Assembly: GCA_021234155.1 (NCBI GenBank)
Contig: JAJEKV010000031.1
Span: forward strand, 4,418,835-4,482,834
DNA: 64,000 bases
Direction of reading: 5' to 3'
Source of the DNA: Isoetes taiwanensis
Taxonomy: Eukaryota > Streptophyta > Lycopodiopsida > Isoetales > Isoetaceae
Shown: positions 22,598 through 48,897 of the stretch, in pieces
How the letters are laid out: the number at the start of each line of letters is the position of its first letter
How positions within the stretch are numbered: the stretch's first letter is position 1
Notes under the pieces: generated by a model
The model's database searches: none
Seen by the model: only the letters and a program-made list of their open reading frames with translations
What the model was told of the DNA's origin: nothing
Position numbers and translations under genes: made by a program

Positions 22598-23600
22598 ATG
22601 CTTATGTTTTGTAGGCTCTTGGCAAGAATAGGGGTCGAGGTTGCCCTAATGATAACATTGGATTACACAGCAAAGTTGTCCACCGCAGAGAGTCGAGAAG
22701 CTCTGGTTTCTTTGCCAAAAATATTCATTGACATTAGCATACCTATAGGTTATGTAAGTTGCTTGCGAATGTCCTACTGGTTTAGCTTGGAAATTGATGT
22801 TAGAGCTTTGTGCAGTTCTGGCAATACTTGTTGCTGATGGGTTCTTCTCACGCCAGAGTCTTCTACATGGCTTCTGATGAAGCGAAACAATAGATGATGC
22901 TAAATATGTGCTTTGTAAAGCATATGATAGCAATGAGCACGCAGCTACTAACCTATTGCTGGTCTTTATTGAAATAAGTTTAAAATCAACGGTGCTCTAG
23001 CAAAAACCAGCCAGGGAAAAGGGGTTCAAAAAGATATTCTTTGCCCTACTGCACCAGTCCAAATAATGGTTGTTGTTGCATTAGGTATACAGTTCTTCCA
23101 GCCAACTTCTAGGATTGATGCACTAGTTCATTATAGTTCTGCAGTTTATAAAGAAGTAGGAATCAGATCTAAAATAATGCTTCTAAATACAAGAGCAGTG
23201 ATGGGCCTTCAGATTGGGCGCAATTTCTTGTTTTTTCTTAGTACTATTGGAATGATAATATTATGGAATTCTGGCATTTGTGTTTACGTTTTTAGATGTA
23301 AGATCTATTAGTAGTGCTTCAAACATGGCTAAATAAGGATCTATAGATCTTATGGTTCTTGCCACAATAGCAATTTATTTGTTTATGGCATTTGTTTTCT
23401 ATGGGATTTGGACCTTCTTATTGGATTCTAACATCTGAGATTTTCCCTTTACATTTGAGAGCTCATTCTTTGAGGTTATGTATTGATGTAAAGAGTCGTA
23501 AGCAGAACTTGGCTCTCACTTTTCTTAGCATTCCAGATGCCATTACTCCTGCAGAGGGTTGCTGTAACTTCTGTGTTGTTTGTTTACTTCTTTGCATCAT
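22598..23600 (+). pseudogene. Polyol/monosaccharide transporter pseudogene
   Basis: Separated frames match major-facilitator sugar transporters of the plant polyol transporter type. After a TTTTGTAG acceptor comes LLARIGVEVALMITLDYTAK with SREALVSLPKIFIDI and IPIGYV (the GIGVGYA..PVYTAE..P..SRG region). At 23066 come VVVALGIQFFQPTSRIDALV and HYSSAVYKEVGI (the QQ.SGI.A..YYSP region). At 23390 comes MGFGPSYWILTSEIFPLHLR (GPI.WVY.SEIFPLRLR). Stops and frameshifts separate the parts, and the proline of PVYT is lost. It lies beside, not inside, the complete Helitrons. Confidence 0.7.
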
Positions 23601-23754
23601 CCCCAAGGCCTCAAGGGGGGCAAGTGTTTTTTTAGTTAACACAAACTATTATATCCAACACTTCTAAATTAAACTCCCCAGAAAACCTCTTTTGATTTTT
23701 CTAGTAATAAATATACGGTTTCCAATCTTTACAAGATTTTTATTTGATTTGTTA

Positions 23755-23922
23755 CTACTTGTTATTCATAGATATATCTTTCGAGATCACTTGTGAGGCA
23801 CATAAAATGGTTTGTACTTGACTTGACTCTTGATGGCCATGACTAGAAACTAAAGAGGCAAAGATTATGATACCTCCATAGCATGAGCCAACTTTGGCAA
23901 TGTTAAGTCTAGAATCAAGCCA
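23755..23922 (-). pseudogene. Hevein-Hint exon 5, separated C-terminal part
   Basis: Minus-strand reading resumes exactly at the far Helitron border: codon GCA ending at 27958 is followed by TGG starting at 23922, same frame, giving [19 protein letters not shown] and [20 protein letters not shown] up to the original stop at 23755. The first residues continue the amphipathic tail, and [12 protein letters not shown] is hydrophobic. Separation by 4035 bp of Helitron makes it unreachable without splicing. Confidence 0.7.
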
Positions 23923-26900
23923 TCCTATATTATAAAGTTTTAGTGTATGTCGTGCATAAAACCCTAAAACTTTCGACGGCCCAGATTTGATGAAATTAGA
24001 ATAAAACCCTAAAACTTTCGACGGCCCAGATTTGATGAAATTAGAAGTTAGACGGTCCAGATAGATGCCTTTTTTTTTTGGCGTTCTTTCAAACCCTAAT
24101 GCCTTTTCTTCACGGATTCTCTTCACGGAGGGCATAGATCTAAAATGCCTCGACTCACTGAGGTGGATGCTCCACACTGTTCTGTACATGTTGTAGAATG
24201 GTCCGGCAGCCAAAAGAGTTGTGTATTTCTTTTTGCTTTTTGTCCAATCTTGAGTCTCGAAAATGGAAAGCTCTATCTTGGCTATGGCATCCGGAATAGG
24301 GAATCTGGTAAGCTAGCATTCAGTATTCTGTTACAAGCTATCCAGCAAGGCAACTGGACTTCCTGCAAGCGGACTGGCTGGCACTATCAGATAAGCCCTT
24401 TTGGCATTATTTCGAATCCATGCTCTATTTTTTTATTCCCTTCTAAATCTTGCCCTTGGATTCCAGCATCTTGGGAAAGGATTCTTTGCATTGGTGCTCC
24501 CAGCCTTGATTGGTCTGCAGAATAATCCAGTTTTTAAGGGATTCAACACAAGGAGCAAAAGATAAATGTTTGAAGATCGGATGCGGATATGAGGAGACGA
24601 ACTGTTTCAGGTTATATCTATGCATTTTTTGAGTTTAAATATTGAAAATATGATAAATATTATCTAGAAATTCCAGTTACATTATGATGCACTCTAAGTT
24701 ATGAAGAGCAAGTATACATCGATTCTAAATCAAAAGCTCTAGAACAAAAGCTGCATGCAGATGCTCGAAGCTTGGTTTCTAGGGTTTGTTGGCCGCTGGA
24801 GGTGGTCATAGCACCAAGTCTGATGCCATGTGAAGTCCTAGATGCTCTCTGATTCCGATTTTGTGGAGCTACGATTTGGAGCAGATTGTTTTTTCTAATA
24901 TCTTTCCTCTTCTCACAGCTCTGTAATCTTTCCTTTCTGTAATCATGGCATAAAGTGCTGGAATGCATTAAAAAGATTCTGAACAAGTAGCCCGAGATTG
25001 GCTATGTATAAGCATAATCGTATCCATAAGACATGTTGTAGGCAATTTGTGTAGAAAACAAGTTCTTATTCTTATCAAGATGCATGGTTTGCATTACATT
25101 TTGAAATTGAGTACCAATTGATATTTGTTCTTTTATTATCTGTTCCTAATACAATGGTTTTTACATGCTTCCCATTTAAGGTTCCATTCTATGTTGGATA
25201 ACAACTCCTGGCATCAATCTGTGTGGGATTTGCATTGAAAGGAATATTCTACCCAGATTTACATGGTGGTGTCACAATTCCTCATGGAGATGAATATTGG
25301 CAGTCATTTGTTCTCGAATTTACTATTTCCTTCAATCTCATGTTTGTAGTCACAGCTGTTGCAACAGATACCCGTGCTGTAAGTTCTTATGGCCCTTATG
25401 CATGCCTCAATTCTGTATTGTGGTAGACCTTTAGAACAGATGAATTTAAATGAAGCAGCATATTTTTTTCAATGAGGAAAGCCGCACATCAAAAACATCC
25501 TTAGAGAAGGACGTGTGCCCATGGCGTATAAGATGCACAGTCTGCACGTTTTTTTAGTGTCCAAACCACATTGCAGTATTAAGCATCCGCCCAATAAACA
25601 ACGGAATAAGATGCATTCCACAACAAAACCAGAACCAGGCAGCTCACATGACCTTTTGGTTGTTTGATATATGTGCATGTTTGGTCTGCATAATCGGATT
25701 ATGATAATTCTTTTCATTGTCTGATATGTCATTGATGTGCAAAATCCACAGAATAGACGGAAGATTTTATGTGATGACAAGCTAAAGAGGTCAGAAGCAC
25801 TGCAATCCATCACTTACAATAGCTTTTGCAACGTTGCGTCATTTTCCTTGGATTCAGGTTCCATTTCTAACCCTTGGTCTAGCCAATATGTTTTACAAGT
25901 AGGCAGGATAATGCCCTCTTAGGTTTCTGTAATCATGGCATAAAGTGCTGGAATGCATTAAAAAGATTCTGAACAAGTAGCCCGAGATTGGTTATGTATA
26001 AGCATAATCGTATCCATAAGACATGCTGTAGGCAATTTGTGTAGAAAACAAGTTCTTATTCTTATCAAGATGCATAATTTGCATTACATTTTGAAATTGA
26101 GTACCAATTGATATTTGTTCTTTTATTATTTGTTCCTAATACAATAGTTTTTACATGCTTCCAATTTAAGGTTCCATTCTATGTTGGATCACAACTCCTG
26201 GCATCAATCTGTGCGGGATTTGCATTGAAAGGAATATTCTACCCAGATTTACATGGTGGCGTCACAATTCCTCATGGAGATGAATATTGGCAGTCATTTG
26301 TTCTCGAATTTATTATTTCCTTCAATCTCATGTTCGTAGTCACAGCTGTTGCAACAGATACCCGTGCTGTAAGTTCTTATGGCCCTTATGCATGCCTCAA
26401 ATTTGTATTGTGGTAGACCTTTAGAACAGATGAATTTAAATGAAGCAGCATATTTTTTCCAATGAGGAAAGCCGCACATCAAAAACATCATTAGAGAAGG
26501 ACGTGTGCCCATGGCGTATAAGAGGCACAGTCTGCACGTTTTTAGTGTTCTGGAGAGACTATGTTTAAGGTCATTCGCTACAGGCACATAATAAGAGTAT
26601 AATTGTTTCCTTTGTAAATCAGTCCATGTATCTTTATTTCTGATAAGTTTGTTCAGATTTTTTACATCTTCATAATGTCGTACAGAATAGAAAAAGATAG
26701 CAACAAAGTTTTCGACATGCTTGCATGGGAGAGCCCTATAAGCTCATTCTTTACACAGAATTCTGAATGAAAGATTGATGCAATAAAGGTCAATAGCAGG
26801 TAAAATGTTGAGGCAAATGAGATCATGTCCTTTCTCCCCTTAAATCAATCCTTTGTAATGATAATATTTATCTTTGTGATAAGTCTTGGCCAAATGAGAG

Positions 26901-29734
26901 CTTTTAATATATGGGACCTTTTAATAGGAAGCCCTGCTGGATAAGCATATCAAAACAATCATTTCAAAATGTTACTTATACAAGATTAATACCAATTTTT
27001 AGGGTGCCTTTACATAGAGCAACATTCATAGACTTTGTAAGTTGGTGGTATAAGTTGGTAGTAATACAAGAGCTATGATGCACACCAACTTAATTCAACT
27101 CTTTATAACCCATTTGGTTATAACCCGTTTGGCACCATTACAATCAAATCTATGACAACCAACAAAACTCTACAAGCATTTTGTTACCATTACTAAATGC
27201 CAAGTTGGAAACAACAAACAAAGAAATCCATGATTTCGTACCTACGAAAAAAAAAAGCATGAAAAGGCCAACAATTTCAAGGATGGAATGTCTGTTCTTA
27301 GTTTTAGGCAAATAAAACATAAAATGTTTGCTACTTGGCAATATGAATTGTTGATTTGTTGATATCCTATGTTGATAACATGAATTGTTGATATCTTATG
27401 TTGGCAACATGAATTATTGACATCTACATGAATTTCACAGGCTTTGTTTTCAATTTCCTACGAGCAACTATAGTCCCAAACTATAGTCACCCATTGTTTT
27501 GCACTGCCAACATTCGTCACCCATTGTTTTGCACTGCCAACGACCCATTATTTTTGCACTACCAATGACCCATTGTTTTGCACTGCCAACATTCGTCTCA
27601 CCATCATTTTAAATGGATTAAATGGCTCTACAAGATCTATGACCTCCAAATTTAGAAGACCCCTATATATGATCCACTTCAATGCTATTCACATTAGTAC
27701 CAAAAGTTGGATCATTACAATTAGCACACTTGATTTGTTATGCAAAAGGTTACTCATTCCAAATACTGTAGAATCCCTCCCTCTTCTCCCACCTTCCCTC
27801 CTCTCCCTCCCCCAAAAAAAAAAACACCTAGATGAAAAGATTACTTTACATTATGTATACAATTAGCAACGGTTAAATTACAAGGTATGTGTATTTAATT
27901 CTGTAAATTCATTAACAGGGTTTCAACCTAGCCCAGCAACGCTGGGCTTGGTTCTAGTGCATACATAGTGATATATGCATCCCTTCCAAGAATTTTATAT
28001 AGTGACCTTACGGGAGCAAGAATTGCCTCATACACTGTTGGTAACCAGGCAGTCAGACCCATTGCGTCAAACAACTCATCCAAAAACCATTCGCTATGAG
28101 CAGATGCCAAAACGTCGTTTACTATTATGCTTCCTGACATGGTATATGGATTGAAAAGGCCGGCCTTCCAATTCTTTGATATTCCTGCAAATGTGTAGTT
28201 ATAGAATCAATAGAATAGAATAGAATAGATCAATGAATTAATCTCCAATTTTAATTAGATACTAACTAGTAATGGTGCCCAACGTTGCTGGGCATAAGTT
28301 GGGACGTGTAAATGAATCTGTTGAGTCTGCTTTTTGCAGGTCGTTGTAGAATATATTTTTTGATGTGCTTGTATTCGAGTTTGTTGAATGCTACCTATAG
28401 GAAGGTTTAACGGGTAAGGTAAGGTTTGTTTTGAAAAGTGTGTCTATTTGTGAACATGGAAAAACATAGTTTATGCAAGGCAGCTCCATGCTCAATCAAT
28501 ACACTATTACAAAACATACCTTGTTCAATCAATACCCTATTATAAATCTATATTCCATTGAATAGGAAGTTAAGTGCCTACATTCCATTAAAAGGAGGCG
28601 AAGTGTTCTTTAGAATTCGAGCAGAAAATATTGATGGCAATCATTCATGTTCTTAGTGTTAGGAGGCACTTGCGGGTTTAGCAAAGGAGTCATTGTTCCC
28701 AGACCCCATAAATACTATCTCATTTTTTGTTGTGCCAAAATCTAGGCAGGTTATTATGACCAGGCCAGCAGATGACAAATGCTGCCCATGATATAAAATG
28801 TTTCCACTCTGAAACCAATGAAAATAGATAATTTTGGATAAGAATTAAGCAAACGCTGCCCATGATATAAAATATTTCCACTCCGAAACCAAGGGAAATA
28901 GATAAATTTGGATAAAATTTAAGAAAACGTGACAATCGTATCACATGTGAAAAAGAAAAAGAAAAAGAAAAAGTTACAAAAAGAAAAAGTTATTGGGTGA
29001 GCTATTTGGGTAGTTCTGTACAAAATTCTGAATTATTTTTAACGTAGCTTTTTGAAGAAACGCTAAGAAAACGTGACAATCGTATCACATGTGAAATTCT
29101 GATGGGATGTTATATTACAAAAAGAAAAAGTTATTGGATGAGCTATCTGGGTAGTTCCTTACAAAATTCTGGAATATTTTTAACGTTGCTTTTTAAAGAA
29201 ACGCTATGGATCAACTTGTTGATTTTTTCCTTTGATTGGCTTATCAATGCAGATAGGTATAAATATGGCAAGCATGTTTTTCAGAAATGTCTTACGAACA
29301 AACATATTAACCTCCTTGTCTTAGTCATCTTGGACTGGATTGTTAAGACACAATGATAACTTTATAGATGCACATGGTTGCTTCCTATTTTTTAGTAGCA
29401 TAGAAGGAAATGATATTTGATTTCCAAAACCGTCATCCTCAGAAGCAGCGCTAGCATTTCTCGAAACCTGCATGATCTTGTCTTCCGAGAAAGATCAACA
29501 GCTCTTTGTCCAGATGAGCAACTTAAAGTGCACTCAAGGGGATCTGTTCTATTGTTTTAAGCACCACTCTATTCTTAGCAGCAAGAGCTGGGCTGATTTT
29601 CTTAAACAACATTAAAAGTAGAAAATTCCATGGTATTTAATAGGCGTACTACTCCAATTCGTTCTTCAAATGATCCATCAATTCTTATAGTAGAACCACA
29701 TACATTATCAACATATCCTGGCATGAAGTTATAA

Positions 29735-29768
<34 letters not shown>

Positions 29769-32700
29769 GTCACGTCGTTTGAAGACCCTCAGGTCCATTT
29801 GGCGACAAAAACTAGTACATTGTATCAAAAATTGGACATATTAAACTATGACTCAAAGAACTCCACAAACTGGAGAAGATCAATAGTGACTTGTCTGTGC
29901 GCCCACCACGCTTGGAGGTAGCCCCCTATCTTTGATGGGTCAAGCATCAAGAATTCAGAAAAGGATGTTGTATGGATATCAAACTCCTCTCTTAAATCTG
30001 TAAAGTTTGGACATTCTAAGAAGGCATGCTGCTCATCTTCCACAACCATCCTCCAACAACAAGGACATATTCTTTGCCACCTTGGAGTGCCTTCTTCTCG
30101 TCCCATCTCGATCTCTAGCCCATGGGAGCTCAATCTAGCTTGAGCTATGAGTTTCCGTTTCCTTTTTCCAAGATTTGCGTTCAAATAGTCTTGTCCAGCA
30201 TAAACCAACATAGGATTCACTTCCTTTTTATAAAAATCCATCTTCACCCCACAATCACACCATAGTTTTCTAGTTACCTGCTCTGTGATCAAGTCTCTCA
30301 TGCCAATGTGAGTATCGGGCAAACTATTTACGTCAATCCCCCATTGGTCTGCCCAACAAGCGAGCTGCTTATACCACCCTGAACAATTTTGTTTTGATGA
30401 CTCCAGTAATGCACGGTGAGGAATCCTACTGGGTTCTAGATCTTTGATACGTCGAAGGTATTCAAGAGCCTGGCAGAGAGCCTCTGCTTCCAATGGCAGT
30501 AATCCTGTTTCAGCAAGTAGCATGGCATAAGGCGTTTGCTGTTTCACCCCTAACTCTTCAAGAATAAACCTTTTCTGAACTTTTTCTACCTTCTTCCACA
30601 TACGTCTGGAAAGACCTGGACTCCATGCTGGGGAGCCATACAGTACAACTGTTTGCACTAGCGTCTTGTACATCAATTTCCTGATATCCCATTTATCTAT
30701 ATTCATGTTTCTCCAAATGCTCATAACACCATACAATGCCCTCATACCTCCAGTGACTCGTTTTTGAACTCCTGTATTCCACTTATAATCGTTTGAGAAA
30801 TCCAAACCAAGATATTTATACTGCCTTACTTGCTCTAAGGTTTCTCCTTCCAGTGTCATGCTTACGGATTTTCTAGTCCCAACCACCATCACTTTCGTTT
30901 TTGTTTTGTTCACAGTCATGCCTGATGCCTTACAGAAATTATCCAATGTGATCAACTGTTTCTGCAATCCCATCTCTGTTCTGGAAAGTAATACTACGTC
31001 ATCGGCATACAGTAGGATGTTGATGGCATATCCAACAAGGTTTACTCCATCTCCACCTTCTCTAATAAGCCATTTTTCTAAATCATCAATGTACAAACCA
31101 AATAATGTTGGCGACAATGGACATCCTTGTTTGACACCTACATTACAGTCAATCTTCTCTGGTCCGTTTAATGAAAAGGAAAATTCAGCAAGTACCTTCT
31201 GATATAAGCATGCTACTCCTTGTCTTAGCTCAATAGGAACTTTTAACTGCTCTAATCTGGCACCAAGTTTTCCTCTCGGAACACGATCAAATGCCTTGGC
31301 AAAATCGACAAAGCAACAAAAAAGTGCCTTACCTGCTCCCTTGGATCCTTCCGCAATCACTCGTAAAGTAACCAGGTGGTCTATGGTTGAGTGGTCGGGG
31401 CGAAAACCAGCTTGTCCCGTGGCTCTGATGTCTTGTGATTCTGCCCACGATCCAATTTTCTTTTCCAACACCGCTCTAAATAGTTTTGCCATCACACTAC
31501 TAACCATGATGGTCCTATAATTCCTCACACAATCTTTATCCCCAGCTTTATGGATAGGGATAATCCGATTAAGACACCACTGATTCGGAAATCCATAACG
31601 TAGCACACAATTGAACAACTCTGTTATTTGTGCAGCTACAATGTCCCCTCCCCATTTGAGAAACTCGGTTGCCATACCCAACGAATCTCTAGCTTTTCCG
31701 TTCGACATACGTTTAAGAGCCATTTTGATCTCTTCTATAGTGAAAGCATCTACTATTTCTCCTTCAATCAGTTCCATTCCTTCACTGCTTGGTAGATTAT
31801 ATAATTCATTTGCATACTCTAAGAGGTCCCTTCGCGAGAAGTTTCCCAAAAATGTGTCTGGTTTCCGAGTGTGTTTCCAAAATTTCCTTGGGTCATTATT
31901 GAGATCTTCAACTAGCTTTACTTGCCATCTAGATTTCCAAGCCTCCTTCTTTCTTTTTACCACTTTCTTGAAGAGCTTCCTTGCTTTTTGTTTATCGTAT
32001 GAACTGTAGAAAGATTTCCGCAAGTTACTAAACCAAGCATTAGTGCATTTCCTTGATTTACCTCCTTTGGATTGATCAAACACTTGGGTGGCTGCCTTCA
32101 ATATAATATCAAGAAAAAGCTGATTTCTAGCACCAAAATCGCTAGGCCATTGTATTGCACTCATGATGTCGGTAACTGTTGCTTTGTACTGCGTAGCCTT
32201 ATTTTGCTGAATTCTAATTCTGTCTTGCCTCATCTGCTTTCTTGTTTCTTTATGTTCCACCTTAACTTGAAACAGAATTGCTTCGTGATCTGACTCTGGT
32301 TGCTCTACAAGTTCAAATTTCTGCACATACTCTTCAGCCCCATGTGTATGTATAAGATAATCAACTACACTGTCACCATTTGGTCTATGGCAAGTGAAAC
32401 CAGATGTACCGGGGTATCTAGCTGATCCATTACACAAAAGCATGTTAAACGTTTCACATAGCTGAATCAAGTATGAGCCCATTTGATTTCCGCACCTATC
32501 TAGAGATGTTCGGTCCCATCCTAGCTTCTGAATTATATAGTGTGAGTAGTATGTTAAAGAAAGACCTACAAACTGCACAATATGAGGCAGCATAGGAGGT
32601 CTGTATTCTGCTCCAACAGATCTGTGCATTTAAAAAGCAAGTGCTCCCTTAGCTAAAGATTACAGATGGACAGTCATATTTTATAACTTAAATGTTTAAG

Positions 32701-35606
32701 AACGAAAGAACCCACCTATCCAGACAATCCTAGGCCATGTCCTTGCTCAAGTGCTCTGGGATAGCTTTGACATCAATATTAACATCTTCCTTTAATGCCT
32801 CTGCTACTCCTGTGATTACTTTCCCTATTCTAAGATTTTCAAATGTCTTTCCTGCACATCATCCCTTTTTTGTTTACCTATAATTGTGGAACCGTTCCAG
32901 GATCTGCAACAGATGGATGAGATATCCGAACAACCTCCTAATGGCTTTCAGAAAATGGTGGGCTCAATTTACAGTCCAGCTTTGACAGCCCTAGAGTGGA
33001 AATCCTGCCTCTCTTCATGCTTGATATCTCTACAATCACCAAGATCCTTGCAAGAAACATTATCGTAATTAGAGAGGTCCCTGCAAAAATAGAAAAAAGC
33101 TAAGCTCTGCTCTTACCTATGACATCTTCTCTCAAGTTGCAGTGTCCTAAGGCAGCCAACATAAAAAACACAGATAGATTGGCCTGACATTGAGCAAGTT
33201 GTATTGTGCAAGCTCTTGGTATGAAGTGCTTCGTCAAGCTTCATTCAAAGGTCTATGCTTCTCCAAGCTCTGCCTGCAAAGATCATTTTTCAAATCATCA
33301 TTCTCCGCTTTAGCCTAAAGCTCCTCTACTTTCGCTTTGATTGTCTGCACTTCATTGCATTTCGCACTTTCTCAGGCAGATGACAGCCAGAGCGACAAAG
33401 CCCCGGGACGAACCATAGATAGCTTGCATCTGCACACATAAAAACTCATTTGCTTGTAGTTCTTCAAATCAGAAAAAGTAAGAACTACTAACATGATCCA
33501 AAAGAATAATAGACATTTTAAACCTTGTGTAGTACAGAGTGCAACCTTCATTCCGATTGCCCATGTTAATGGCAGGGCACCTTCTGCATCCCACAATATG
33601 CATATCAGTTCAAGTTAAAGCATAAGTTAAAACATGCATGATAGTAGAATATGACTTTATCATCCCTGGTGCTTACCAACACATTCTGGGACTTTATATC
33701 GCGATGAACAACATCATTGTCGAGTAGATGCTGCATTCCCTTGCCAATATGAATCATAATGTCAATCGATTCCAGCTTTAAAAATCGAGGATTTTTATTT
33801 TCATTCTTTCTGTTATCAGCTTTCTCAAGTCTTTCTGCATAAACTCTAGGATAATATTTTGCCTGCCTTTGGTAAGACCAAATACCTTAACAATATGAGA
33901 AGAATTGGAAGCCTGCATCTTGAGGAAGCCATTAGATAGCACATACTGCTCGTAATTGACAGAAGAACTATTAGTATCATTGATTTTTTTTAAAGCCACA
34001 GGCATCGGATATGAATTTGTTTCATAAACTTGTGCAAACCCAGCTTCCCCTAGCTAACGCTTGCCCTGTATATCACGTTGATCATTAAAGAACATTTTGT
34101 TGGACCATTCATGGCATTCAACTTGAGATGCCCATTTCATTGTTTCTTGCATAACATTATAATCAAGTTCTACTTTTTTCTGAAGAAGATGAAGAAGATT
34201 CTGCTTATGCTCATTTTCACTTGAAGATTTGACAATATCCTCTAGCAGTCGGTTCATTTTGAGCAATTCTTTTTACATCATCAATAATCTCAATAAAATC
34301 ACCAGAACTTGGCCCAGAGTCTTCGAATGCAGTTTTTCGCAGCATTGGAAATGTTGATGAGCAAGTTTTAACGCTCTAAGTAGCTGCTCGGCTATAACTT
34401 CCATGTGTTTGGGCAACTGTGATGAAATGGCGCTGTGTTTGGTTGTGAAGCTTGCGCCTTGAAGCAGAGAAATATGATAATCATGTGCCGTAAAAAAAAT
34501 TTCGGCCCTTTTTTTCTTATTCATTGTCACCGTTCGATCAAAAAGTCGACGTGGGCCATTGGATCTAGGGCCAAACAAATTGCAACCGCTGGATCTAGGG
34601 CTGGATTGAAAACGGACACACATTAAAACATTATAATATAGGATGCCATCAATTACCATGCCAATTGAATGCACTTTTGTGTGTATATCACATGACTTGA
34701 AATGGGATGCTAAAGTTTTGAGGTACTAAATCTAGCGCATGTAAGTACATGATATGTGCATGTCCTCTACCATGATGGCGGGAGGGGGGAGGCGGTGAGG
34801 GAGAGAGGACTACCAGTTACAGTGAAGTGAGATAGCATAGTTGAGTTGGCCTTCGAGATGGAAAACATAATATCTCCAACGTTGATCTCTTTGGCCCGCT
34901 GGAGCACTCGCATAGCATCTAAAGATATGCATAGCAAAAGCATGAGATAAACTCGTAGTGAGTGAATAACCAATTCAAAAACACACCAGCTAGTATGATT
35001 GGCGCAAAATGTGAAGAAGTCATCTCGATGATCCTTGTTTCTCCACTAAGAGATTGCAGTGTGATGCTATAGTACTCTGTTAGAACATCAACCTCCTTAT
35101 GGCCAAAGGCATAAACATCTTCATAGATGATTTCTCCATATTCTATAAAGGCGGCCACCTAGAACATATCAACATTGAAATAAGACATATGGATATAGTT
35201 GATGGATATCAATTTGGGAATCACCTTGTCACCAATAGCAAGCTCGTTCATGCTTTTGGTTAATCCAGATGGTGTCAACACAAGAGCATCACCTGCCACA
35301 CACAAGATTTCATACAGACTCCAATATGGCTGCAAATTAAGCAAAATTAAAGCTTAAATGGTCCTATAAAGCTTACTTGGAAAGCAACCACCCCCGCCAC
35401 CGCCGCTGCTTGAGGGTGGGGGTGGGGGGGCTTGGGGGGCTTGGGCATTGGGATGCACAACCAGAACCACAATATGCTTCGCTAGTGCCACAATAGCCAT
35501 ATTTACTACAACATTGGCCTGAAGGACATGGGCACCTACCATCTTGTCCAAGCACTGGACGCATAAATGTTGCCAATGACAACACCAGAATCAGTATTAG
35601 AGCCAT
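23755..35606 (-). CDS. Hevein-Hint (Hedgehog-type autoprocessing) gene, split by two Helitrons
   Basis: Five coding exons with GT-AG junctions: 35606-35377, 35292-35225, 35158-34987, 34918-34814 and 28184-27958 continued at 23922-23755. The protein would be about 322 residues: signal peptide, hevein domain, Pro/Gly hinge, then a Hint domain starting at a G-CF junction ([19 protein letters not shown]) as in Hedgehog (GCFPG). Inside it are [12 protein letters not shown], the TxxH catalytic motif in [17 protein letters not shown] and [18 protein letters not shown]. In Hedgehog proteins this domain cleaves before the Cys and transfers a sterol to the upstream part; a cell-wall chitin-binding domain takes that place here. 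All phases agree when exon 4 is joined to exon 5 across the 6.4-kb Helitron and when exon 5 is read across the 4-kb Helitron. As it stands, exon 1 has a one-base shift in a C-run, and the exon Helitron adds an early stop, replacing the last 55 residues. So this allele is probably altered or dead. Confidence 0.8.
25181..25378 (+). pseudogene. NIP aquaporin exon, captured copy 1, with stop
   Basis: After an ATTTAAG acceptor, 66 codons encode the NIP segment around helices 4-5: [54 protein letters not shown], ending at a GTAAGT donor. Codon 7 is TAA (25199-25201) where copy 2 has TCA. Plant NIPs share FALKG, GGVT, LEF and [11 protein letters not shown]. The exon lacks both NPA motifs, so it is a fragment captured by the Helitron. 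Confidence 0.85.
26171..26368 (+). pseudogene. NIP aquaporin exon, captured copy 2
   Basis: Same 198-bp exon as copy 1 but open throughout ([35 protein letters not shown]) with intact acceptor and donor. It differs from copy 1 at only a few codons. Alone it cannot make a channel, since the NPA-bearing exons are absent. Confidence 0.85.
27487..27592. repeat. Short tandem repeat in Helitron A
   Basis: The unit CACCCATTGTTTTGCACTGC plus CAA(C) with a short spacer is repeated about four times with variation, 400 bp from the Helitron 3' end. Confidence 0.8.
27958..28184 (-). CDS. Hevein-Hint exon 5, first part
   Basis: An ACATTTGCAG acceptor leads to [38 protein letters not shown] and [20 protein letters not shown]. 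'GLFNPYT..G.I.VN.V.AS.HS' is the closing strand pair of Hedgehog Hint domains (GVYAPLT..GT..V..V.ASCYA). The [13 protein letters not shown] stretch resembles the region that follows Hint in Hedgehog-type proteins. The frame reaches the Helitron end at 27957 and would stop inside its terminal hairpin after nine foreign residues. Confidence 0.8.
28300..29733. other. Helitron B body without a supported gene
   Basis: AT-rich DNA with a duplicated segment: the phrase AACGTGACAATCGTATCACA, with flanking AAAAAGAAAAAGTTA and GGGTAGTTC, occurs near 28925-29030 and 29068-29175. A second small duplication (TGCCCATGATATAAAATRTT) lies at 28784 and 28856. No coding frame has family features. Confidence 0.55.
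29734..32645 (-). mobile_element. 5'-truncated LINE nested in Helitron B, ending in a TCAA tandem tail
   Basis: The element consists of the large ORF (32629-29846), a 3' UTR of about 80 bp, and a tail of eight or so TCAA units (29767-29734 on minus) in place of poly(A). The 5' limit is set only by the start of coding sequence: an in-frame TAA touches the ATG, and the endonuclease lacks its N-terminal half, which fits 5' truncation on insertion. No target duplication was identified. Confidence 0.8.
29846..32629 (-). CDS. LINE ORF2: endonuclease (C-terminal half), reverse transcriptase, Cys motif
   Basis: 927 residues in one uninterrupted frame. Residues about 36-100 ([33 protein letters not shown]) are the C-terminal half of the apurinic-type endonuclease; its metal-binding start is absent. 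The reverse transcriptase follows, with PIHKAGDKD, motif [17 protein letters not shown] near 438-453, [20 protein letters not shown], and motif [11 protein letters not shown] with the catalytic YADD at 541-544. A zinc-knuckle-like CPCCWRM ... H.FLECPNF starts at 855. This is the catalytic protein of target-primed retrotransposition. The intact 2.8-kb frame amid decayed DNA implies a recent insertion. The 5' truncation makes autonomous mobility unlikely. Clade was not determined. Confidence 0.92.
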   Translation of the reverse strand: MHRSVGAEYRPPMLPHIVQFVGLSLTYYSHYIIQKLGWDRTSLDRCGNQMGSYLIQLCETFNMLLCNGSARYPGTSGFTCHRPNGDSVVDYLIHTHGAEEYVQKFELVEQPESDHEAILFQVKVEHKETRKQMRQDRIRIQQNKATQYKATVTDIMSAIQWPSDFGARNQLFLDIILKAATQVFDQSKGGKSRKCTNAWFSNLRKSFYSSYDKQKARKLFKKVVKRKKEAWKSRWQVKLVEDLNNDPRKFWKHTRKPDTFLGNFSRRDLLEYANELYNLPSSEGMELIEGEIVDAFTIEEIKMALKRMSNGKARDSLGMATEFLKWGGDIVAAQITELFNCVLRYGFPNQWCLNRIIPIHKAGDKDCVRNYRTIMVSSVMAKLFRAVLEKKIGSWAESQDIRATGQAGFRPDHSTIDHLVTLRVIAEGSKGAGKALFCCFVDFAKAFDRVPRGKLGARLEQLKVPIELRQGVACLYQKVLAEFSFSLNGPEKIDCNVGVKQGCPLSPTLFGLYIDDLEKWLIREGGDGVNLVGYAINILLYADDVVLLSRTEMGLQKQLITLDNFCKASGMTVNKTKTKVMVVGTRKSVSMTLEGETLEQVRQYKYLGLDFSNDYKWNTGVQKRVTGGMRALYGVMSIWRNMNIDKWDIRKLMYKTLVQTVVLYGSPAWSPGLSRRMWKKVEKVQKRFILEELGVKQQTPYAMLLAETGLLPLEAEALCQALEYLRRIKDLEPSRIPHRALLESSKQNCSGWYKQLACWADQWGIDVNSLPDTHIGMRDLITEQVTRKLWCDCGVKMDFYKKEVNPMLVYAGQDYLNANLGKRKRKLIAQARLSSHGLEIEMGREEGTPRWQRICPCCWRMVVEDEQHAFLECPNFTDLREEFDIHTTSFSEFLMLDPSKIGGYLQAWWAHRQVTIDLLQFVEFFES
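32650..33670 (-). other. Helitron B cargo, exon-like fragments not identified
   Basis: Reading minus, 33360-33235 gives [15 protein letters not shown], a stop, then [15 protein letters not shown], a coiled-coil-like piece. Near 33590-33530 there may be a kinase exon remnant. Neither can be assigned. They probably belong to the captured kinase gene whose clearer exons lie at 33.7-34.4 kb. Confidence 0.35.
33677..34441 (-). pseudogene. Captured protein-kinase gene fragment in Helitron B
   Basis: Minus-strand segments in order: a helical N-terminal region ([53 protein letters not shown]), then the kinase N-lobe with [15 protein letters not shown] and the strand-3 lysine in PVALKKI, then [20 protein letters not shown], and after a one-base shift [18 protein letters not shown] and [12 protein letters not shown] followed by a GTAAGC donor (33676). 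H-R-D-x-K-x-x-N is the catalytic loop. The DFG exon was not found. The N-terminal helical bundle ahead of a kinase recalls plant MLKL-like or other non-receptor kinases, but this is a guess. Several stops make it non-functional as it stands. Confidence 0.7.
34814..34918 (-). CDS. Hevein-Hint exon 4
   Basis: The exon reads [34 protein letters not shown], matching the second Hint half ('a.e..vGd.i'). It ends in phase 1 (ACT G|GTAGTC). The following intron holds the 6.4-kb Helitron, starting 170 bases after the donor. Confidence 0.75.
34987..35158 (-). CDS. Hevein-Hint exon 3, with TxxH motif
   Basis: The acceptor GTTCTAG is followed by [36 protein letters not shown] and [17 protein letters not shown] corresponds to the conserved T-x-x-H of Hedgehog and intein Hint domains, which helps form the thioester. 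The exon is 172 bases, ending in phase 1 at a G|GTGTGT donor. It is the best-preserved part in the duplicate at 46-48 kb. Confidence 0.8.
35225..35292 (-). CDS. Hevein-Hint exon 2
   Basis: After a GTGTGGCAG acceptor the exon gives [20 protein letters not shown] and DK, the first strands of a Hint domain (x-DALV..psG..k.m.eL.iGDkV). The next donor is AAG|GTGATT. Its 68 bases fit phase 1 in and phase 0 out. Confidence 0.8.
35377..35606 (-). CDS. Hevein-Hint exon 1: signal peptide, hevein domain, hinge, cleavage junction
   Basis: [20 protein letters not shown] is a typical secretory signal (residues 1-20). [20 protein letters not shown] and [10 protein letters not shown] follow with the eight-cysteine, Ser-aromatic pattern of hevein chitin-binding domains. 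The hinge is Pro-, Ser- and Gly-rich. Frame 0 leaves the family pattern after [10 protein letters not shown]; the +1 frame gives [13 protein letters not shown] with the donor GTAAGC at 35376-35371. The switch lies in runs of 5-7 C, so a one-base assembly error or a real frameshift is equally possible. Confidence 0.8.
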
Positions 35607-35646: not shown

Positions 35647-35969
35647 ATTTATGCTTGGTAGATGCAAACGTGACATTTAGAGATAAGAGTTTGGTGAAAT
35701 GAGTGTGATGTAGATGAATTTTTGATGCTTGATAACTACATAAAATGAATGTAAGAATCATTTAAGGAAAAAGGAGCAAGAGAATAATTTTTAAGACGTA
35801 TCGATATCTTTTGCATGACTTTCTTGTACTAGACTGTAAATGTTATATCATGACCTTCAAATTTCAAAAATTTGTGAATTGATAGCCTACAACTTGTAGT
35901 CTAGATAGACTCAGATAACCCTTTGTAGGTTCTGCACATAAAAATGCGTCATCTATGTAACCTTTGTAT
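35647..35969. other. Upstream region of the hevein-Hint gene
   Basis: AT-rich, no gene. It is duplicated at about 48355-48683 with small indels, up to GTAACCTTTGTAT, where the foldback insertion begins in this copy. Confidence 0.6.
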
Positions 35970-36289
35970 CCCATCGATCCGAGACATCGGATCGCCATTC
36001 TAGAATGGGACGAACATGCATGTTTTGCATGCATGCGGGCGGCGCATGCCCGTTCTGGTTGGGAGTTCGCTATTTTAGGCGCGTTTCTGCTTCGACCTCT
36101 CATCGGCGCTTCCTGTTCTCTCTCAGCAGTACCTTTTCTCTTTGAATTGTTTCCAGGCAGGGGAGGGGCTTCTTCCTGCCTGGTTTGGCCACTTTGGCAT
36201 TTTTTTCATGCTGTCCTTTCTTGGCCTTTAGCCTTCATCCTGTGACCTTCGTCCTCGATCCTAGTTTGTTGGTTTCATGCGAGTCCCAT

Positions 36290-38290
36290 TCTAGAATCCC
36301 ATCGATCCGAGACATCGGATCGCCATTCTAGAATGGGACGAGCATGCATGTTTTGCATGCATGCGGTGGCGCATGCCCGCTCGTTGGGAGTTTGCTATTT
36401 TAGGCGTGTTTACGCCCGACTTCTCATCATCTTCCTCTTCTCTCAGCAGTACCTTTTCTCTTTGAATTGTTTCCAGGCAGGGGAGGGGCTTCTTCCTGCC
36501 TGGTTTAGCCAATTTGGCGTATCTTTCATGCTATCCTTTACCGGCCGTTGGCCTCGTCCTGTGACCTTCGTCCTCGATCCTAGTTTGTAAGGAAATTCTC
36601 TGGTAGTCGGGCGGTTTGTTGGTTTCTTGCGAGTCCCATTCTAGAATCGCATCGATCTGAGACATCGGATCGCCATTCTAGAATGGGACGAGCATGCATG
36701 TCATGCATGCATCTTGGCGCGCATGCCCGTTTTGGTTGGGAGTTAAGCTATTTCAGGTAGCGTTTACGCATCGCGTCTCATCGGCGCTTCCTCTTCTCTC
36801 AGCAGTACCTTTTCTCTTTGAACCCACCCTCCCCCCCTTCTTTGTTTATTGTATTTTGTACAAGTTCTGTTTATCATGTTTTTCCACCCGCTGGGTGATG
36901 CTTTTTTTCCACCTGCTGGGTGATGCTATTCTCTGGTATGTTTTCTCGTTTGTTGTGTTGGTGATGTGCGGTGTGCAGGGTTGGCGGCGGCATCGCATTT
37001 CGACTTCTCCCATCCACGGGGGTTTTGGGAGGCGATTCTATGCCTTACGTTTGTCTAAGCCCCTTCCGAAGGCTTATCACTAGGGTTTTCCTCGAAAACC
37101 GAGAAAGGAGGTTTTAATCCGTGATAAGCTTTCGGCAGTACATCAACCACTCATCTATTAGCATTGTATTTTTTTTTTGGGGGTCCAAATGATATAATTG
37201 GATTTTCCCTTTATTTTTAGGTGGGTGGATGTGTGCGTTACCCATCGCCCATTATTGTAGAAATCTGGGTTGAGATGAATGAGAAGCCTATCTATTAGAC
37301 TTGCTTCTCATTCATCTCAAAGAGATTTTCTACAATGGTGGATAGTGGTTAGCCGCACACATGCGCGAACTACCCATAAAAAAAATAAAGGGAAAATCCA
37401 ATTATATCATTTGGACCCCAACAAAATACAATGCTAATAGAGATCTGGTGTAAAATTCGCCGAAAGCTTATCACCGGATTAAAAACCCCCCCTTTCGGGT
37501 TTTCGAGGAAAAACCCTAGTGATAAGCCTTCGCAAGGGGCTTGGACAAACGTAAGGCATAAAAATCGCCCCAAAACCCACGAATGGAAAAGTCGAAACAG
37601 ATGCCGCTCGCTAACCTGTACCTGCACATCACCAACAAAACAACAAGACAAAACAAACCTCCCGTGAGTGGAGGGGTTGATTACGCCGCGTGCCACGCCG
37701 ATAAAAATACAATACAAAGAAGGGGGGGGAGGGTGGGTTCAAAGAGAATAAGGTAATCACGCCGAGAGAAGAGGAAGCCCGATGAGAAGTCGGGCGTAAA
37801 CGCCTAAAATAGCTTAACTCCCAACCAGAACGGCATGCGCCGCCCATGATGCATGTAAATATGCATGCTCGCCCCATTCTAGAATGGCGATCCGATGTCT
37901 CGGATCGATGGGATTCTAGAATGGGACTCGCATGAAACCAACAAACCGCCTCGGTACCAAAGGACTTCCTTAACAAACTAGGATCGAGGGACGAAGGTCA
38001 CAGATGAAGGCTAAAGGCCGATAAAGGACAAAGATGAAAAAAATGCCAAAGTGGCCAAAACCAGGCAGGAAGAAGCCCTCCCCGCCTCGAAACAATTCAA
38101 AGAGAATAAGGTAATCACTGAGAGAGAAGAAGAAGCGCCGATGAGAGAAGTCGGCGAAACGCCCTAAAATAGCGAACTCCCAACTGTAACGGGCATGCGC
38201 CACCCGCGATGCATGCAAAACATGCATGCTCGTCCCATTCTAGAATGGCGATCCGATGTCTCGGATCGATGGGACTCGCATGAAACCAAC
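36290..38290. repeat. Long inverted repeat, 1-kb arms centred at 37295
   Basis: At the centre TTGAGATGAATGAGAAG (37270-37286) faces CTTCTCATTCATCTCAA (37304-37320) across 17 bases. Further out, TAGGGTTTTCCTCGAAAACC at 37082 faces its complement at about 37495-37517, and the CATCGATCCGAGACATCGG units pair at 36646/37940 and 36297/38275. Distances from the centre agree within about 15 bp. Arms differ by small indels. Confidence 0.8.
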
Positions 38291-38749
38291 AAACCGCTTG
38301 CCTTCATTCGCATGCCCCGTCACTATCCTTCAGCGCCTAATTTCTACCGATTCCTCTCATCTTCTCAATCCTCCGTCCGGCCCCTCTTTTTCGCTCCCTC
38401 CTTTCAAGGCCCTTTATTCTATCCGCCCGCTTTCGGGGTGGTGGCGAGTGTCTTCTTGCTATCGGCTTAACCTGGAGGTTTCACGGGCGACTAGGCTTAT
38501 AGTTGAGGAAGTCCTTTGGTAGTCGGCCGGTTTTGTGTCTCTCGCGAGTCCCTTCCCGAATCCCATCGATCCGAGCCATCGGATCGCCATTCTGAAGAGA
38601 CGACGCCTATATTAGGCCATTTCTGTTTTTGGCTCGGTTATCGGCGTCTTCTCACGCTGACTCTTCTTCTCCTCCTCGCGGGCTTTCCCTCCCTTGCCCG
38701 CCACGCTCCGCCACGTGGCACATGAGTCTTTTCATTTGTATTTTTTGTT

Positions 38750-46035: not shown

Positions 46036-48897
46036 ATAAACTCGTAGTGATTGAATAATTAATTCAAAAACACACCAGCTAGTATGATTGGCGCAAAATG
46101 TGAAGAAGTCATCTCGATGATCCTTGTTTCTCCACTAAGAGATTGCAGTGTGATGCTATAGTACTCTGTTAGAACATCAACCTCAAGATACACAATCGGA
46201 TCTGGTTCCGCTCTACTCCGAAGTTACCAGCCCAAGCCTCGGGCCAGCAAGGATTTCCATCCACAGCATCGGCCATAGGTACCAGGTTCTGGATTGCTCT
46301 GAATTATTTTGGACTGTTTTGTGTCCCAGTATTGCTCTTGGCATCGCGCCCTCACTGCCCTTGCATAGACCCCCTTGATTTGCCCCTTTTTGGCTTTCTC
46401 TCTCTAGGGTTTACAATCTCTCTCTAGACTCAAAACCCCCAAACCCCCAAAAGGTGCTCTGCCCGCCTTTCTGAGTCCCCAAATTGGATTCTAAGCACCC
46501 TTTAGGCAGCCAGAGACCCCTTAAACTTTGGCACCCCCAAAACCCCATTTGTCTTCCCTTGGCTTGTCTACTCGATTTGCCCTCGGTTCTTGGCTCCTTT
46601 GGTCATGCCTTTGTTCTCGGCCTTGTACGTAAGATCAAGCGTATGGCGGGAGACGGAAGGAGAATCTCTCATTACCTTTGAGCGATTACATCCCGCCCTA
46701 TGACCCTTAATGCCCTATCTTGAGCAATGCATCATTGAACCTCGGCGCCCTATCTTTGGCGAACCCCGACACCACCGCCCCGGACCGCGAACCAGCTCGA
46801 ACCATCTTTAGTCAGCGGCCTTGACTAGGATGGATGCTCGATCCATTGTTTGCCTCCACATTTTGTTGGTTGGGATCCCTTGCGATCCAATCCGCGATCC
46901 ACACTCCTGTTGCGCCGGCTTAGTTGCCCTTGGGAGGTCCGGCTTCTAGAATCTTGCTCTGATCAGCGGGAGATGATTCCGATTGCAACAGCGGTGCTAC
47001 GCGATACCTCCCGCGGTGGCGCTTTGAACATGTGGATGCTACGTCCCGGTAGATGATACCACACTGGTACCCATTACCCGGGCATCCCAGGGTTGTTTGC
47101 CCATTGCGACAAAGTCCCGGCTTCGCGGCTGACGAACCCGCAGTGCCATTAGCCCCGAACCAATGCGCATTGTGGGGTTTAGAGGAAGCAAGCGACAAAT
47201 TGAGGCGGTTGAGGTGACCCGTTTTCTTTCGAGGTGATGCACGTGACAAAAGCGATGGCATTCTCCTGGCAATGTCGAGTTGGAGCAGCTGCGGCGACCG
47301 TCTCCCGTCATTGCTAGTCGGTTCGGGGATGCTTTATCTAGGCTGCACATCCTCCGCCATGGCAATCCACTTGCAAGGGACCTCCTTCTCCGCCCGAGGA
47401 AGATCTTACCCGGCCACTGACTCTATCGGCCGGAAGGGATGAATTATGCCCAGTCATGAGGCCGCCTCACCTTGTGGAAGTGGGGTGGTGTATAGAGGCG
47501 GCGTGCTATCATGGGATAACCGCCACTTGGAACCATGGGCGTTATGCGTGTAGGTGATTTGACTTCGAGATCTGCTAGGGCTTAGGCCCTCTTGTTTTGT
47601 TTTATTTTAGTATTGTGATTTGCTCACGAGTCCCCGAAGTTTGCATCGGGCTAGTCCCCACGTTTGATTTTGCCCGGCCTTTTGGTTTAGTCCGCAGGGC
47701 TTGGTCCCCGAGTTCCACCGGGCTTTTGCCCTCTCTTTTGTATTAGGTCCCATAACTTGGAATTGGGTTCCTTGGACGTTAAAAATTTCTTCCTTCCTTC
47801 CTTATGGCCAAAGGCATAAACATCTTCATAGATGATTTCTCCGGATTCTATAAAGGCCACCTAGAACATATCAACATTGAAATAAGACATATGGATATAG
47901 TTGATGGATATCAATTTGGGAATCACCTTGTCACCAATAGCAAGCTCGTTCATGCTTTTGGTTAATCGGATAGTGTCAACACAAGAGCATCACCTGCCAC
48001 ACACAAGATTTCATACAGACTCCAATTGTTTAAATTAAGCAAAATTAAAGCTTAAATGGTCCTATAAAGCTTACTTGAAAAGTGCTAAACCACCGCCACA
48101 CACACGCTTAAGGGTGTGGGGTGGGGGCTTGGGGGCTTGGGTAATTGGGATGCACAACCAGAATCCACACATGCTTCAAGTAGCCACAATAGCCATATTT
48201 ACTACAACAACATTGGCTCCTGAAGGACATGGGCACCTACCATCTTGTCCAGCTAATCGACGTGAGATAAATGTTGCCAATGACAACACCAGAATCAAGA
48301 TTAGGAGCCATTGGCCGCATGCTTGGCTTAATTCACATGCTTGTTATATAGCATTTATGCTTGGTAGATGCAAACGCGACGTTTAGAGATAAGAGTTTGG
48401 TGAAATGAGGTGATGTGGATGAATTCCCTTTAAGATGCTTTTTGATAACTACATAAAATGAATGTAAGAATCCATTTTAAGGAAAAGGAGCAAGAGAATA
48501 AATTTTAAAGACGCATCGATATCTTTGCATGTCTTTCCTTGTACTAGACTGTAAATGCTATATCATGACCTTCAAATTTCAAAATTTGTGAATTGAAAGC
48601 CTACAACTTGTAGTGTAGATAGACTCCGTGATAACCCTTGTAGGTTCCGCATAAAAACAAGGCCATCTATGTAACCTTTGTATGTACATTATAGAATGAT
48701 AGTATAATCATGCATCTTTTGAAGATGGCCGATTCCCCCATGGAGGCAAATAAATTGTTGATTAAGGAAGTGTCTTGGGATCTTCCTCACACATTCATAA
48801 TACATTTGTATCTCTTAGATATAATATTTGTATTTGATATATTTGGTCTAGATTTTTTAACATAGAGGTCAAAAGCAACTGCCATTTTGTTTGTTTA
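46036..48897 (-). pseudogene. Degraded duplicate of hevein-Hint exons 1-3 and upstream region
   Basis: 46036-46184 and 47801-48897 match 34943-35969 plus 39583-39815 in order and orientation. Exon 3 is split by a 1.6-kb insertion, exon 2 lacks bases around TTAATCGGATAGTG, and exon 1 (about 48075-48312) has broken cysteines in the hevein part (for example GGCTACTTGAAGCATGTG). The signal-peptide ATG is retained and the TATA box is conserved. It ends at a Helitron-like CTAG (48898) on one side and a polypurine tract on the other. It has no exon 4 or 5, so it is dead. Confidence 0.85.
46185..47800 (+). mobile_element. LINE-derived insertion, 1616 bp, in the pseudogene copy
   Basis: Comparison with the first copy (CAACCTC|CTTATGG at 35095) marks the insertion exactly. 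It ends in GGACGTTAAAAATTTCTTCC with a TTCC tandem tail, typical of LINE or SINE 3' ends. The body has CTCTCTCTAGGG motifs near 46400-46430 and a 3' part with repeated phrases (GAGTCCCCGAAGTTTGCATC, GCTTGGTCCCCGAGTTCC). No reverse transcriptase was seen, so it is a truncated or internally deleted non-autonomous copy. Confidence 0.7.

Follow-up and report, generated by a model that had tools for sequence, protein, structure and literature searches.

Hedgehog-type Hint (Hog) domains are spread across eukaryotes, and their jobs outside animals are unproven. The window analysed here, a stretch of 64,000 nucleotides from Isoetes taiwanensis (contig JAJEKV010000031.1, positions 4,418,835 to 4,482,834), contains exons that seem to place such a domain behind a hevein-type chitin-binding domain. 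The locus raises the question of whether the genome encodes this fusion and, if so, what a Hog domain would do with a chitin-binding cargo.

On the minus strand of the window, we recovered the elements from which the preliminary description had deduced a hevein–Hint gene. Exon 1 (35377..35606) encodes a hydrophobic signal-type N terminus and an eight-Cys hevein domain (together 35606..35424), followed by a Gly-rich Pro/Ser/Gly hinge ending in G-CFP and the donor GTAAGC. Exon 2 (35225..35292) begins the Hint domain at a phase-1 acceptor, and its equivalent in an intact copy, L004, is matched by Pfam Hint; an upstream AG, TTGCAG, was considered as the acceptor and rejected by eye, as a stop is soon met. 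The Hint core in exon 3 (34987..35158) contains GHK, which occupies the position of Hedgehog D303, and TSSH, the TxxH box. Exon 4 (34814..34918) covers the Hint beta region, and the first part of exon 5 (27958..28184) the motif J region and the hydrophobic region after it, up to ..AYITMYA. The Hint pattern proposed for exons 2-5 is therefore present, with both TSSH and GLFNPYT..GSIIVN.

The five exons as originally printed do not encode the fusion, and we rejected the reading of the window gene as functional. The hevein frame of exon 1 stops at 35373, out of register with the G-CF; the break lies in the C-rich hinge (about 35413-35440), where this copy differs in length from the others by one base. 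Exon 5 is split after ..AYITMYA by an insert (23922..27957), and the coding tail picks up at 23921, which explains the start coordinate given in the preliminary description. The displaced remainder of exon 5 (23787..23921, minus strand), corresponding to the hydrophobic C-terminal segment, has lost its frame and, in comparison with L004, carries a small deletion near 23840. Since the assembly was built from Nanopore reads polished with Illumina data, as stated in the available part of the genome paper (PMC8566536), the break in the C-run could by itself be a sequencing error, but the exon-5 insertion hardly so, and the window copy is a pseudogene. A second copy in the window (46071..48304, minus strand) is badly broken and retains exons 1-3 only.

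The 4,036-bp insert in exon 5 is Helitron-like and lies on the plus strand: it starts with TC, its end is formed by the hairpin AGCCCAGCAACGCTGGGCT followed by CTAG, and it is flanked by A and T with no target duplication; the uninterrupted site is seen in L004. We take these four features, TC start, terminal hairpin, CTAG end and insertion between A and T, to be the criteria for a Helitron. The insert carries two 97%-identical stretches (24934-25553 and 25924-26543), and the one tested by Pfam contains a MIP, aquaporin-like gene fragment. Insertions have also enlarged intron 4 (28185..34813, minus strand) to 6.6 kb in comparison with 262 bp in L004, and it now contains a LINE-type ORF of 927 aa (29846..32629, minus strand; RVT_1 E 1.9e-31) and protein-kinase-like fragments (33605..34053, minus strand), one above the Pfam cut-off and one under it. 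Adjoining the broken gene is a fragment of Sugar_tr, a sugar-transporter domain (23371..23667), barely above the cut-off, and a self-complementary stretch of about 725 bases (36935..37659; inverted self-match of 80% identity) lies in a repeat-rich region (35968-38603).

An intact version of the gene lies about 5 kb ahead of the window's first base. The two window copies belong to a tandem cluster of six hevein–Hog copies on contig C1036 (class A; the others are L001-L004), of which L004 (G000:C1036:4412000-4414200) is open over five exons and the other five are broken. The CDS of L004 is 951 nt long and encodes 316 aa, and all four introns are GT..AG and frame-preserving. The protein consists of a signal peptide, a hevein peptide of about 54 residues up to the end of the Pro/Ser/Gly hinge, Hint, a hydrophobic stretch similar to an adduct region and a C-terminal membrane-type segment, and it keeps all eight Cys, the G-C, the TxxH and the tail. 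Its hevein part is matched by Chitin_bind_1 (E 3.9e-9, 37 bits; Pfam cut-off 27.8), the sole Pfam match in the N-terminal part, where no Hedge signalling domain was found, and by 27 PDB sequences at E 0.001 or better, which are lectins, chitinases, hevein and antimicrobial peptides. By eye, the hevein domain also retains the Ser and aromatic positions associated with chitin binding. The proposed fusion of hevein with a Hedgehog-type Hint thus stands, borne out by L004 and by two sister architectures, although the copy from which it had been deduced is dead.

The assignment to Hint held in a profile search with one protein per class: against a Pfam Hint cut-off of 29.7, L004 scored 94 bits (E 1.3e-26), L005 72.7 bits (4e-20) and L017 91.6 bits (6.9e-26). 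Searched against PDB as a single sequence, the Hint part of L004 found no chains other than Hedgehog below E 1, among them three Drosophila Hedgehog sequences (1.6e-8 to 1.7e-6) and Sonic hedgehog (7.9e-5), and a six-sequence profile of the family found Drosophila Hedgehog as its best match (4.6e-14). The same profile scored 6tyy, described as a D303H variant (PMC9163320), above the wild type 1at0 (55.4 and 51.0 bits). We ruled out an intein, as the C terminus consists of motif J and a hydrophobic tail and not of a splicing HN with a +1 nucleophile and C-extein, and also Hedgehog proper, given the missing Hedge domain, the His at D303 and the Ala or Val at C400.

To describe the active site, we surveyed 24 loci (L001-L020, L022, L023 and both window copies) for its patterns, accepting any reading frame. 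All 24 have His at the position of D303, the general base of Hedgehog, and TxxH is found in 22 (absent from the fragments L022 and L023). The exon-1 CFP is present in 21, the exceptions being the second window copy, L007 and L016, and 18 show the motif-J pattern AS.HS[ED]WFL. In the 13 proteins aligned, Ala or Val replaces the motif-J Cys, C400 in Hedgehog. According to the available part of a review, engineered D303H Hedgehog keeps its activity, has a wider sterol range and gains more than 200-fold on coprostanol (PMC9163320). The conserved His would be expected if the second, acyl-transfer step were under selection. In the aligned family proteins, motif J is followed by a conserved hydrophobic region with P.R. 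Matches to Hedgehog end at residue 145-149, both with the single sequence and with the six-sequence profile, and past motif J we found no sequence match to the Hedgehog sterol region. Further downstream, the C-terminal hydrophobic segment has a Kyte–Doolittle 19-residue mean of 1.87 in L004 and 1.41-2.24 in five other proteins, and by its hydropathy resembles a membrane anchor. The P.R region is reminiscent of motif K.

Genome searches with the window's exons 3, 5 and 1 gave 29, 28 and 71 matches, respectively; these are numbers of matches and not of loci, as some copies match twice (the second window copy does so with exon 3). We fetched 20 loci around the Hint matches and four further stretches. 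Outside the C1036 cluster, the hevein exon-1 matches were read in two places, L021 and L024. L024 consists of two consecutive hevein domains, and hevein matches cluster on G000:C1040 and G000:C985, where several open frames match twice. Gene models were built for 16 of the 20 loci, leaving out L001, L003, L007 and L018, and 13 of them are open from Cys to stop; the model of L002 fails by frame, while L010 and L016 miss the donor pattern used. L011 has no exon-3 acceptor at the anchor and L012 and L014 have tails unlike their class, and these three may be damaged. An exon-by-exon search of the genome with Pfam Hint gave 14 matches, all exon-5 pieces (profile positions about 128-162) of a single class, class C, and none in the C1036 or C1034 clusters, whose exons came to light only in the searches with exons taken from the window itself.

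Besides class A, two architectures share the Hog part. Class B, on contig C1034, consists of L005-L007 and the fragments L022 and L023, and its exon 1, read in L005, L006, L022 and L023, encodes a signal-type N terminus and a cargo of about 15 residues before G-CFPG. In these four loci the entire secreted cargo would be this short peptide with an SG/GG end, similar to a peptide signal. Class C comprises L008-L020, spread over six other contigs; its extensin-like SPPPP repeats are followed by SKEV- or SKQV-CFPG, where the residue preceding the catalytic Cys is Val and not Gly. Exon-1 frames were read for 12 class C loci (all but L018): 7 run from a signal-type start to CFP in frame (L008, L009, L010, L015, L017, L019 and L020), L016 has the start without CFP, and in L011-L014 no start is reached in frame. 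Together with L004, L005 and L006, these seven make up the loci with a hydrophobic N terminus in frame with CFP, and in L002 and L011-L014 none is reached in frame; signal peptides were judged by N-terminal hydrophobicity. The intron phases 1,0,1,1 and the CFP|G/S junction are common to classes with unrelated cargo, and the junctions listed for 15 of the models are all GT..AG, save the L011 exon-3 acceptor. As the classes share phases and junction yet differ in exon 1, their gene structure shows an apparent exon-swap pattern in which exon 1 changes the cargo and the Hog part stays constant.

The Hint part differs between the classes with dN/dS of 0.28 (L004-L005), 0.32 (L004-L009), 0.28 (L004-L017) and 0.33 (L005-L009), the ratios being rough at the between-class dS of 0.9-2.0. 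Seven pairs inside class C gave 0.22 to 0.60, and the class B pair L005-L006 0.15.

The reading we favour, and to which we give an even chance, is that the window holds a dead tandem copy of a gene whose intact form, L004, makes a secreted self-cutting precursor and releases the chitin-binding peptide as a lipid ester. The precursor would most likely reside in the membrane of the ER/Golgi. Its G-C Cys would attack the carbonyl of the preceding Gly in an N–S acyl shift assisted by the TxxH box, a step suggested by the conservation of the Hint residues. The His at the D303 position could then activate a hydroxyl on a lipid of the membrane, probably a plant sterol, for attack on the thioester; transfer to a membrane lipid is proposed because of this His and the likely membrane placement, and the sterol only by analogy. 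The chitin-binding peptide would be freed carrying the lipid as an ester on its C-terminal Gly and would stay tethered to the wall-facing side of the cell surface, and the sister genes would treat extensin-like and short peptides in the same way. The His at the D303 position and the hydrophobic C-terminal segment strengthen the lipidation reading, whereas the lack of a match between the region after motif J and the Hedgehog sterol region weakens it. The loss of the motif-J Cys, the Val before the catalytic Cys in class C, the broken state of five of the six class A copies and the lack of matches to the C1036 and C1034 clusters in the exon-by-exon Pfam Hint search also count against a lipidating precursor.

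More tentatively, and with the chances against it, we suggest that the family represents a land-plant Hog lipidation route, in which Isoetes would put sterols on secreted wall-type proteins, the cargo being swapped by exon and the Asp at the catalytic base position naturally replaced by His, the same exchange that was later engineered in Hedgehog. To our knowledge, sterol-ester modification of proteins is confined to animal Hedgehog. If a sterol ester were found, plants would gain a Hedgehog-type modification, and the natural His would show that D303H chemistry exists in nature. The recognisable cargo would in turn give a plant Hog domain a concrete function, namely to anchor wall or defence proteins covalently to the surface of the cell.

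The strongest alternative is self-cleavage without a lipid: once Hint has formed the thioester, water or a thiol would resolve it to give a free soluble chitin-binding peptide, and the domain would act as a protease timed to secretion. Plants ordinarily secrete hevein peptides in free form, and both the lost motif-J Cys and a sterol region unrecognisable by sequence agree with such an outcome. A His kept in 24 of 24 loci does not, since thiol cleavage has no need of it: in the available part of the review, D303A Hedgehog loses full cholesteroylation yet is still cleaved with DTT (PMC9163320). The long conserved region downstream of motif J points the same way, and we consider release without a lipid unlikely, if still a serious contender. 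The lipid-ester reading could also be right about the transfer and wrong about the sterol, with a glycolipid, glycerol, wall polysaccharide or protein taking the thioester and the domain crosslinking wall cargo. Judging by the hydrophobic stretch and the C-terminal segment, catalysis would take place at a membrane, and Pfam recognised no additional domain in the four proteins tested, so that we regard a non-sterol acceptor as improbable even though the cargoes are of wall type (hevein and SPPPP repeats), the adduct region is unlike that of Hedgehog, and D303H is described as accepting unusual sterols (PMC9163320).

The hevein class may also be a relic, a fusion that arose and whose copies are decaying, with L004 open merely from youth. 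Five broken copies out of six fit this, and so does the comparison of the copies with L004 over exons 1-4, where exon and intron divergence are 4.0% and 1.8% for L003, 3.3% and 1.8% for L002, and 1.2% and 1.4% for the window copy. Exons being not clearly less divergent than introns in these three copies, we saw nothing to indicate that purifying selection has recently acted on the hevein class, as expected if its copies are mostly dead. On the other hand, L004 is open across 316 aa with its eight Cys, G-C, TxxH and tail, and the dN between its Hint and class C (0.515) is about equal to that between classes B and C (0.490), so the L004 Hint has not long been free of constraint; a mere relic is in our judgement quite improbable. 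Finally, although unspliced L004 exon 1 runs into a stop, we find it barely credible that the hevein gene ends there and the Hint exons belong elsewhere, as one CFP|GT junction and a phase-1 intron link three N-terminal modules to Hint and the CFP residues fall inside the Pfam Hint match.

Searches beyond the genome covered prokaryotes and viruses. Among prokaryotes, 17 stretches matched two peptide patterns and none was confirmed. A viral collection gave 71 matching stretches and 12 loci with a distant Hint, of which six were read; all six end in VHN, look phage-like by reading and were rejected as Hog domains. In viral-contig ORFs L025, L028, L031, L032, L034 and L036, Hint starts with CFPGDALV (at residue 172 in L036 and at residue 21 in the other five) and is followed by VHN-KGGGKG.

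For the hevein part, hevein-domain chitinases such as Isoetes L021 are among the closest known systems. L021 likewise has a signal-type N terminus and a hevein domain, with 61% identity across residues 5-61, and differs in having, after hevein, a chitinase-looking and presumably GH18-like ORF in place of the Hog domain. The preliminary description had measured the gene against angiosperms; the host is a lycophyte, and Hog domains were reported in 2008 for another lycophyte, Selaginella, as well as for Physcomitrella (Buerglin 2008, PMC2362128). As described in the available part of that study, the Selaginella and Physcomitrella proteins, like those of Isoetes, have an N-terminal part joined to Hog and a replaced motif-J Cys, with Ser, Thr or Asp taking its place in the Hogs of moss and red algae, and the Physcomitrella protein has a good signal peptide. 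Compared by description, their upstream region is conserved among three proteins and was not seen in other organisms, whereas in Isoetes it is hevein, an extensin-like sequence or a short peptide (PMC2362128). One Hint gene is reported from the brown alga Ectocarpus in the accessible text of PMC3879662. Plant Hog domains were thus already known; within the open-access PMC literature, no report of a hevein–Hog or extensin–Hog protein was found, and the available part of the Isoetes genome paper (PMC8566536) mentions neither hedgehog nor chitin. Among animals, nematode warthog, groundhog and quahog similarly combine Hog with swapped N-terminal modules, their acceptor being unproven (PMC2362128), but the modules are others and the lineage is animal. 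In comparison with Hedgehog itself, the Isoetes proteins lack the Hedge domain and Cys400, have no recognised sterol region and carry an extra C-terminal hydrophobic segment; with the Drosophila C-terminal domain (1AT0) they share the Hint sequence, the G-C start, the TxxH and the motif-J-like end, and with the D303H variant 6TYY the His at D303.
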